Part shown: piece after piece, positions 5,407 through 7,649 of the stretch
Layout of the letters: every line of letters starts with the position of its first letter
How positions within the stretch are numbered: position 1 is the first letter of the stretch
Origin: Fidelibacterota bacterium
GTDB taxonomy: Bacteria > Fidelibacterota > UBA8477 > JABMPR01
NCBI GenBank assembly: GCA_013202385.1
Contig: JABMOT010000238.1
Span: 1-40,613, forward strand
Direction of reading: 5' to 3'
Length of the DNA: 40,613 nt
Notes under the pieces: generated by a model
The model's input: only the letters and a program-made list of their open reading frames with translations
Told to the model about the DNA's origin: nothing
Databases searched by the model: none
Position numbers and translations under genes: made by a program

Positions 5407-5907
5407 CTACTTTTCTTTAGAAATTCTTCTACCGTAGTAGACCTGATCGACTTCTATTCCCTCGAACTCAGCAACTAAAGGTAGATGAGCCCATTTTTCA
5501 AAACCAAACTTTTTTAACAGATTAACACTTGATGTGTTGTTTTCAAGTATAATTGCAAACAGATTTTTTATTTCGAGTTTGGGACAGATGGAAATCGCCT
5601 TATCTAGCAACGCCGACGCAACGCCCTGATGGTGGTGTTTTTTATCCACAAAATAACTTACATGCGCTGTGTGACGAAGTGCTGCCCTACCCGGTCTATA
5701 GGGACTGATGCTTAAAAACCCAAGTATCTCACCCTGATCTTCAGCAATCAAAACAGGATGTTTTTCCGCATTATGGCCGGCAAGCCAGATCTCTCTGTCA
5801 TCCAGTGTTACGGGCTCAGTAATAGCAATTTTTTGCTCATTTATAGCCTGGTTATAGATATCAACCAGGCAGGTCAAATCGCTTTCTTGCGGCGCTCGAA
5901 TAATCAT
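5407..5907 (-). CDS. GNAT N-acetyltransferase, Bar/Pat-like
   Basis: A 166-residue single-domain GNAT. The start IIRAPQESDLTCLVDIYNQAI, the central LGFLSISPYRPG and HVSYFVDKKHHHQGVASALL (acetyl-CoA loop Q-x-G-V-A) match the phosphinothricin/methionine-sulfoximine acetyltransferase group. Members acetylate small amines such as L-methionine derivatives using acetyl-CoA. The ATG directly abuts the VOC gene stop, so the genes are co-translated. The substrate cannot be told from sequence. Confidence 0.82.
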   Translation of the reverse strand: MIIRAPQESDLTCLVDIYNQAINEQKIAITEPVTLDDREIWLAGHNAEKHPVLIAEDQGEILGFLSISPYRPGRAALRHTAHVSYFVDKKHHHQGVASALLDKAISICPKLEIKNLFAIILENNTSSVNLLKKFGFEKWAHLPLVAEFEGIEVDQVYYGRRISKEK

Positions 5908-6291
5908 TCAAAGTGTCCATTCCTGATTTTGCAGTACCACCCGGTAGCCATCCAAATCTTCAAAAGTCTTACCTGAGATATCCCAGTATGGATTGAAAGA
6001 TTTAAACTCAACAAACCCGGCTGCAATCATTCTTGAGCAAGTTCTCTGCCATTTTTTGTTATCCGAGATATAAAAGATCAGCAGATTGTCAGAATCCTGG
6101 GATTTGATTGCATGAGTGTCTTTGTGGCGGGTAAACTCCAAATGATAGAGCTGACTCGGATCTCCGATGATGATTCCGTCAAAACCTTGGTGGTTTTCAA
6201 AAGCGGACAGGCGCTCGAATCCTAGTCCATCCATATACATCTGGCTAACACGCGTTAAATTGTTGGTTGCTCTGGCGATGCGAACTTTCAA
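5908..6291 (-). CDS. VOC (glyoxalase/bleomycin-resistance fold) family protein
   Basis: A 127-residue protein with two beta-alpha-beta-beta-beta halves: RIARATNNLTRVSQMYMDGLG at the start and GKTFEDLDGYRVVLQNQEW at the end, typical of the VOC family. HLEF near residue 50 and EDLDGY near residue 113 are where metal ligands usually sit. The reading frame begins with TTG at 6291, preceded by GAGG six bases upstream, and only one base separates it from the selenoprotein stop. Function beyond fold is unknown. Confidence 0.8.
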   Translation of the reverse strand: MKVRIARATNNLTRVSQMYMDGLGFERLSAFENHQGFDGIIIGDPSQLYHLEFTRHKDTHAIKSQDSDNLLIFYISDNKKWQRTCSRMIAAGFVEFKSFNPYWDISGKTFEDLDGYRVVLQNQEWTL

Positions 6292-6292
6292 G

Positions 6293-7069
6293 CTATACCT
6301 CAGCTAAAATGACTGGCTCAAGGGGAGCATCTTTTTCAAGAAGTGCCAGGGTCTCCCTGAGAATTCTTTTCTGCTGGTCGCCAGCATGGGGATGTCCAAG
6401 GGTCATTCCCCGCTTTAGGGATGTCAGTGTGACCCGGGGTGGCAAGACATTGAGAATGGGCCTGGCATTCCAACTGGTCAGAGTGGTTCTGACTCGCTCT
6501 ATTTCCAGAGCCCTGGCAATCAATCCCACGGATTGAGAGCAGAGCGGTCATGATGGCACCAGGAGAACAGCGTCAATCTGTTCCAGCTTCACAATCTTTA
6601 ATATCTCCGGAATCATTTTATTTACGACTTTGTTAACTCTTGGCTGGTAGCCCATAAAGCTGATTACCGTATCACTCAAACTCCCAATGACTTTCTCATG
6701 AAGCAGTGATTGCAGATGCGTTAACGGGAGCAGAACCTGAGCATCTTCACGAACAGCTGTTTGATCGTAATGGTCATGGGCATATTCCAGCTCTGAATAG
6801 GGTGTTGTCATGGGGAAGGTTCTGATACTGTAATCACCGAGAATGCTTGAGGCGTCAAAGGGTTTGTCTTTGGATGGAAGATATGCCCCGGCAGACGAAA
6901 TGAGGAGCAGCTTTGCCTTTGACAACGCGATACCTGGGCTTGGCGGAGAAACTTCATTTTTTACATAGTTATAAAGTTTCCAATTTGTGACCTTGCTTTG
7001 TTTGAGCCATTTCATCCAGCCCTGTTGAAAATCGGATGTCCATTTTTCGAGTTCTTCTACGATGTGCAT
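6293..7069 (-). CDS. GrdB/PrdB-like selenoprotein with Sec at residue 174 (in-frame UGA)
   Basis: The frame from ATG 7069 meets TGA at 6550-6548 and then stays open in the same frame to TAG at 6295-6293, giving 258 residues with selenocysteine at 174. Both halves belong to one family. Upstream are AKLLLISSAGAY, GDYSIRTFP, the H-D-H-YDQT block, LPLTHLQSLLHEKVIGSLS and SFMGYQPR; downstream are SVGLIARALE and TLGHPHAGDQQKRI. The junction DAVLLVPS-U-PLCSQSVG reproduces the U-P-L-C redox motif of the D-proline/glycine reductase selenoprotein B family. A SECIS-like hairpin lies directly after the UGA. Family members cleave a C-N bond of proline or glycine derivatives, but this short stand-alone form has unknown substrate. 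Its neighbours are an isochorismatase-like hydrolase 28 bases upstream and a VOC gene one base downstream. Gene callers would split it into two fragments. Confidence 0.9.
6495..6550 (-). promoter_or_regulatory. Bacterial SECIS element following the UGA codon
   Basis: On the minus strand the UGA is at 6550-6548. Starting 11 bases later, TCAATCC (6536-6530) pairs with GGATTGA (6526-6520) around a three-base loop GTG. The loop begins 18 bases after the UGA and its first base is G, both as expected for a bacterial SECIS bound by SelB. An outer helix can form between CGCTCT (6546-6541) and AGAGCG (6500-6495). The structure lies wholly in coding sequence, as in E. coli fdhF. Confidence 0.8.
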
Positions 7070-7097: not shown

Positions 7098-7649
7098 TTA
7101 TTCCATGGATGCTAAAAGCTTACTTGTAGACAGCACTTCGCAAAATTCACCATTCAAACTTGCCAGATTGATGTCATGCATTTCCGCTGCTGAATACTTT
7201 GTTCCATTATGACCTTCTCGTTCAAAGGTTGCCGTGGCATCGGAAACAAGAATCACCTCAAAACCCAGGTTTCCAGCCATTCGGGTTGAGGTTGAAACGC
7301 AATGGTCTGTGGTGAGCCCCACAATAACCAGGGAGTTCAATTTGTTTTCTCGCAGATAATCCTCAAGACCGGTTCCGATAAAGGCACTATTCACGGTCTT
7401 GGTAAACAGCGGTTCACCGGGGAGCGGCTGGACTTCTTCCTTAAAAGCGTTTCCCGGTTGATCCGGGTGCAGCGGAGATTTTGGAGAAACGGAACAGTGT
7501 TTCACATGGATAATGGGTAAATCACGGCTTCTCCATACCGAAAGCAGTTTTGCAATATTGGTCTCCGCCTCAGGATTGTTTCTGGAACCCCAAAAGGGCA
7601 GATCAAAGCCCTTTTGAACATCGATTAGTATCAAGGCTGGGTTTTTCAC
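7098..7649 (-). CDS. Isochorismatase-family cysteine hydrolase
   Basis: A 183-residue protein with the catalytic triad of this family visible: Asp10 in LILIDVQKGF, Lys84 in LFTKTVNSAF and Cys117 in GLTTDHCVSTSTRMAGNLGF. Members hydrolyse amides or imides such as nicotinamide, or vinyl ethers. The start is GTG at 7649, which overlaps the stop of the upstream membrane-protein gene (GTGA) and has the SD GAGGAG six bases before it. It precedes the selenoprotein gene by 28 bases. Substrate is unknown, though C-N chemistry in both neighbours invites a shared pathway. Confidence 0.9.
   Translation of the reverse strand: MKNPALILIDVQKGFDLPFWGSRNNPEAETNIAKLLSVWRSRDLPIIHVKHCSVSPKSPLHPDQPGNAFKEEVQPLPGEPLFTKTVNSAFIGTGLEDYLRENKLNSLVIVGLTTDHCVSTSTRMAGNLGFEVILVSDATATFEREGHNGTKYSAAEMHDINLASLNGEFCEVLSTSKLLASME

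Follow-up and report, generated by a model that had tools for sequence, protein, structure and literature searches.

A PrdB-like reading frame with one in-frame UGA

The window, by which we mean the whole 40,613-nucleotide stretch of DNA analyzed here, belongs to a 3.17 Mb genome assembly of the phylum Ca. Neomarinimicrobiota that is 72% complete. A PrdB-like gene lies on its minus strand, between a gene for an isochorismatase-family hydrolase on the upstream side and genes for a YycE-like protein and an acetyltransferase on the downstream side, and the locus comprises the following features.

7098-7649, minus strand: isochorismatase-family cysteine hydrolase (PF00857, 120.9 bits), 28 nt upstream of the PrdB-like gene
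7069-6293, minus strand: PrdB-like gene, putative selenoprotein of 258 residues with an ATG start and a TAG stop (TIGR04483, 99.9 bits; PF07355, 40.2 bits)
6550-6548, minus strand: in-frame UGA (codon 174) that opens the UxxC motif, here U-P-L-C; it is kept in every UGA-type copy and aligned with the Sec or Cys of homologs
6541-6539, minus strand: TGC codon of Cys177, the second redox residue in UxxC, kept in every UGA- or Cys-type homolog aligned
6536-6520, minus strand: bacterial SECIS-type hairpin with a 7-bp stem (UCAAUCC/GGAUUGA), a GUG apical loop and a UGA-to-loop spacing of 18 nt
5908-6291, minus strand: YycE-like VOC/glyoxalase-fold protein (PF22658/PF22659), immediately downstream of the PrdB-like gene
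5407-5907, minus strand: GNAT acetyltransferase (PF00583), downstream of the PrdB-like gene

The single TGA is the sole interruption of the frame, which closes with the TAG at 6295-6293, and the two in-phase frames parted only by TGA that a preliminary description of this DNA had reported from its letters are thus one frame of 258 residues. Read with the standard code and without recoding, it gives a 173-residue ORF, and the first start codon past the TGA, a GTG at codon 181, opens a 78-residue remainder. Ordinary annotation would therefore split the gene in two, in the manner that the same description had anticipated. A scan of the window for other UGA-joined frames returned pairs that are adjacent genes or frames overlapping other genes.

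The best NCBIfam match of the 258-residue product is PrdB (TIGR04483), with a score well short of the 300-bit equivalog cut-off, whereas its match to the Pfam family GRDB (PF07355) exceeds the gathering cut-off of 22 bits and covers profile positions 211-345 of 347. A PDB sequence search with the protein gave no significant match, and its AlphaFold prediction, made from four sequences, has a mean pLDDT of 36, too low to be of use for judging the fold.

The sequence around the UGA reads PS-U-PLCSQSVG in the 258-residue product. In our alignment, the UGA column is occupied by Sec in the PrdB proteins of Terrisporobacter, Peptoclostridium and Ligilactobacillus, and by Cys in those of Enterococcus gilvus and Paraclostridium as well as in Roseomonas and Haematobacter proteins, with a Cys at +3 in all aligned Sec- or Cys-type PrdB and alphaproteobacterial proteins. 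The window protein thereby has the Sec/Cys-x-x-Cys motif required of PrdB. The earlier proposal that the UGA sits at the Sec position of the family holds for the column but not for the motif as it was worded, since true clostridial PrdB has U-G-T-C (TAGUGTCHRS) aligned with the U-P-L-C of the window protein. UPLC or UPMC is the commonest form in Ca. Neomarinimicrobiota, and the Cys form found in two alphaproteobacteria is CPIC or CPVC.

Conservation of the UGA codon and of a downstream hairpin

We scanned 149 genomes of the phylum and detected homologs in 33 of them. Within the genus, where the PrdB-like homologs share 65-73% identity, one TGA precedes the stop, at the same codon, in 8/8 distinct copies (L012-L019; three of these are duplicated by L007-L009 from a second collection and were counted once). 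Six further copies, from outside this family but within the phylum (L020-L024 and L026), likewise have the TGA at the same codon, and across these alignments the UGA is conserved well beyond chance. Compared with L013, the window gene differs by 64 synonymous and 59 non-synonymous codon changes over the 173 codons before the TGA, and by 35 synonymous and 20 non-synonymous changes over the 84 codons after it. By this measure, the stretch downstream of the TGA is evolving as coding sequence, like the stretch upstream.

These observations bear on the reading of the UGA as a true stop, in a pseudogene, a split gene or a misassembled one, with only the 173-residue protein being made. Such a reading follows the standard code, but several families share the same UGA, in 14 distinct sequences that keep the coding pattern behind it, and the conserved downstream motif would go untranslated. 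Because the UGA is common to 14 distinct sequences and is followed by a coding pattern, neither misassembly nor a recently formed pseudogene can account for it. Cross-genus conservation effectively refutes the true-stop reading as a whole, which we consider exceedingly improbable.

Some homologs in the phylum follow a different pattern. A second group (L025 and L027-L041), a PrdB-like paralog subfamily found in other families within the phylum, shows PCSxxT, PVSxxT or PASxxT at the UGA column and is devoid of UGA. We considered whether this group speaks against a Sec reading and rejected the idea, as its members form a separate clade with neither the UGA nor the hairpin. The homolog alignment that the preliminary description had put forward as a possible refutation consequently came out in favor of Sec: redox-type homologs carry Sec or Cys at the column, and the subfamily without this residue is also without the UGA and the hairpin. 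The distribution of the UGA-type gene within the genus is patchy (8/19 genomes), against a stable Sec background with tRNA-Sec in 17/19.

The hairpin at 6536-6520 can be compared with the published bSECIS model, which specifies a loop of 3-9 nt in which one of the first two bases is G, with G or U coming next in most cases, a UGA-to-loop distance of 16-37 nt and a minimum free energy of -7.5 kcal/mol or lower (PMC13188914). It agrees with the published limits in loop size, in having a loop G followed by U and in spacing. The upper hairpin alone, at -6.3 kcal/mol, is weaker than the published energy limit, which is passed only with the lower stem included; the fold with the lower stem reaches -18 kcal/mol in 48 nt, a value equaled or bettered by 4/200 shuffles. 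No Rfam family was matched in the window or in contigs C272 and C313.

Six consecutive codons (+4 to +9 relative to the UGA) are nucleotide-invariant in the eight genomes of the genus, as opposed to only 4/97 comparable codons outside codons +1 to +14. Across the 14 sequences, 94.9% of the stem cells are paired, none of 500 shuffles reaches the observed pairing or covariation score, and sliding the partner column by one lowers the pairing to 64% or less. The UGA-type genes of the phylum form 6-7 of the 7 stem pairs, whereas non-UGA homologs and Firmicutes PrdBs form only 2-5 of 7 in the same register. The invariant codons, the covariation across families and the absence of the hairpin from non-UGA homologs together show that the hairpin RNA itself is under selection.

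Selenocysteine machinery and decoding of UGA 174

The genome to which the window belongs encodes SelA (517 bits) and SelB (339 bits) on the same contig, C272, and SelD (377 bits) on contig C313. The selD gene (C313:4608-5525, minus strand; L048) has an in-frame UGA of its own at 5498-5496, near the N-terminus of the protein (AAGUAGKIGPGD). SelD is thus probably a selenoprotein too, which would give the organism at least two. Between selA and selB lies a putative NRAMP-type membrane transporter gene, judged by eye (L047, C272, 2567-3829).

A tRNA-Sec scoring above cut-off was not found in the window's own genome, where six weak matches correspond to ordinary tRNAs (Ser, Gly, Thr, Glu). A whole tRNA-Sec above cut-off is nevertheless found in 17/19 genomes of the genus, and ARAGORN reports tRNA-SeC(TCA) in ten of the ten loci fetched. 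In one relative (L058), the tRNA-Sec lies directly 3' of a protein gene whose ortholog occupies C288:35-895 in the window's genome; past this ortholog, the contig (L067) ends with GGGAATGTATGTGGTCCGGTGG, the exact first 22 bases of the L058 tRNA-Sec, and a search through the rest of the window's assembly did not recover the missing 3' portion. We interpret the missing tRNA-Sec as the result of an assembly break, because C288 ends inside the tRNA-Sec gene. The search for the machinery, also named beforehand as a way to refute Sec decoding, has therefore supported it: SelA, SelB and SelD are present, and tRNA-Sec is represented by its 5' end here and by the whole gene in the genus. SelA was detected in 13 of the 14 genomes with a UGA-type gene, the window's included, and the remaining one (G053) has tRNA-Sec. 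SelA being present in most of the phylum, we take this co-occurrence as consistency and not as independent proof.

The frame would equally be open if UGA were a sense codon, reassigned for instance to Trp or Gly, or were read through by a near-cognate tRNA. However, UGA terminates other genes normally, such as the gene at 5908-6291, which ends with TGA, and UxxC-type homologs have Cys or Sec at the UGA column, never Trp or Gly. This alternative also sits poorly with the presence of SelA, SelB, SelD and tRNA-Sec and with a SECIS hairpin conserved specifically behind UGA 174, and we give it next to no credence.

Conservation of the UGA, a SECIS-type hairpin behind it and the presence of the machinery make Sec the only well-supported reading of UGA 174, in agreement with the decoding first proposed for this cell, and the window locus is almost certainly a selenoprotein gene. 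On arrival of the ribosome at UGA 174, SelB with Sec-tRNA-Sec would bind the hairpin just downstream of the codon, and insertion of selenocysteine would yield the 258-residue PrdB-like protein with its U-P-L-C redox motif. We infer from the comparisons above that this full-length protein is made in the cell. With much less certainty, Sec174 may be the nucleophile that attacks a small electrophile or disulfide, in which case Cys177 would resolve the intermediate via a selenenylsulfide.

Relationship to proline reductase PrdB and predicted function

The preliminary description had called this an unrecognized selenoprotein, a label that we do not retain: the family is not new, as selenoproteins of the PrdB type with UxxC were recognized as abundant in the sea as early as 2005 (PMC1088965, PMC2398784). 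Among the selenoprotein families of the Sargasso Sea, PrdB with UxxC ranked third in abundance, with 42 genes (PMC1088965), and the Global Ocean Sampling set contains 235 PrdB members (PMC2398784). The window protein and this marine family are alike in their Pfam family (pfam07355), in the UxxC motif with Sec in first position, in the SECIS downstream and in marine origin; we liken them by description. Those surveys dealt with environmental sequence, whereas our analysis assigns the gene to Ca. Neomarinimicrobiota together with its decoding machinery and its neighbors. Selenocysteine in Marinimicrobia is a topic that the titles and abstracts returned by our literature search do not treat. Our analysis adds a well-supported selenoprotein and its SECIS element to an uncultured marine phylum that, as far as those titles and abstracts go, has hardly been tied to selenocysteine.

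Selenocysteine decoding would also be compatible with a part in Stickland-type amino-acid reduction, the protein being either a true PrdB of D-proline reductase or the B subunit of a glycine/betaine reductase, and the preliminary description had implied such a function. Its top NCBIfam match being PrdB, its Pfam GRDB score above cut-off and the shared UxxC column would all fit this assignment. The protein is homologous over ~200 residues to the D-proline reductase PrdB of Terrisporobacter, Peptoclostridium, Ligilactobacillus and Enterococcus, which carry Sec or Cys at the position of UGA 174 and Cys at +3. It nevertheless shares only ~26% identity with true PrdB, has UPLC in place of UGTC and scores far below the TIGR04483 cut-off, which true PrdBs pass with 422-453 bits. 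Its similarity to GrdB (PF07355) concerns the C-terminal part only, the N-terminal half of GrdB being absent.

The partner subunit and the operon are missing as well. A profile search for PF09338, the PrdA/GrdE-type subunit, found it in 0/19 genomes of the genus and in 0/8 other genomes of the phylum carrying either homolog type, with a model that could overlook a strongly diverged partner and, for the window's own genome, at 72% completeness; the positive control, a plasmid known to carry prdA, scored 610 bits. In place of a prd operon with prdA, prdC or prdD, the neighbors of the gene are isochorismatase, VOC, GNAT and lipocalin genes. Because a pyruvoyl-type PrdA/GrdE partner was not found, the protein probably does not serve as Sec subunit in either D-proline reductase or glycine reductase. 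Either of these activities is unlikely for it, and we regard its assignment as a genuine PrdB or reductase B subunit as quite improbable.

The PrdB score below cut-off, the lack of PF09338 and the non-prd neighbors together point instead to a standalone UxxC selenol/thiol oxidoreductase, which is the role that we somewhat favor for the window protein. We see an even chance that the UxxC PrdB-like proteins of Ca. Neomarinimicrobiota form a separate class of PrdA-free selenol oxidoreductases whose substrate is not D-proline, with a possible link to the adjacent isochorismatase-type hydrolase, and that at least some of the abundant marine "PrdB" selenoproteins are misnamed. Our results suggest that, at least in the present case, calling these abundant marine proteins "proline reductase" may misstate their function.

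A parallel in gene context comes from alphaproteobacterial proteins of Roseomonas and Haematobacter annotated as "glycine/sarcosine/betaine reductase selenoprotein B family protein", which, like the window gene, are encoded away from prd or grd genes. Their CPxCHQT motif is close to the UPLCSQS of the window protein, and the Roseomonas protein also falls below the PrdB cut-off (86.7 bits). They differ in having Cys instead of Sec, in sharing ~24% identity with the window protein and in lacking a SECIS-type hairpin in register.

The arrangement of neighboring genes recurs in part among relatives. Six other genomes of the genus keep the isochorismatase gene on the upstream side of the selenoprotein gene, four of them directly adjacent and two at a distance of ~0.8 kb, and this hydrolase may act in one pathway with the selenoprotein or be its functional partner. 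Downstream, the YycE-like VOC gene is found in L019 as well, and the GNAT gene in six other genomes of the genus.
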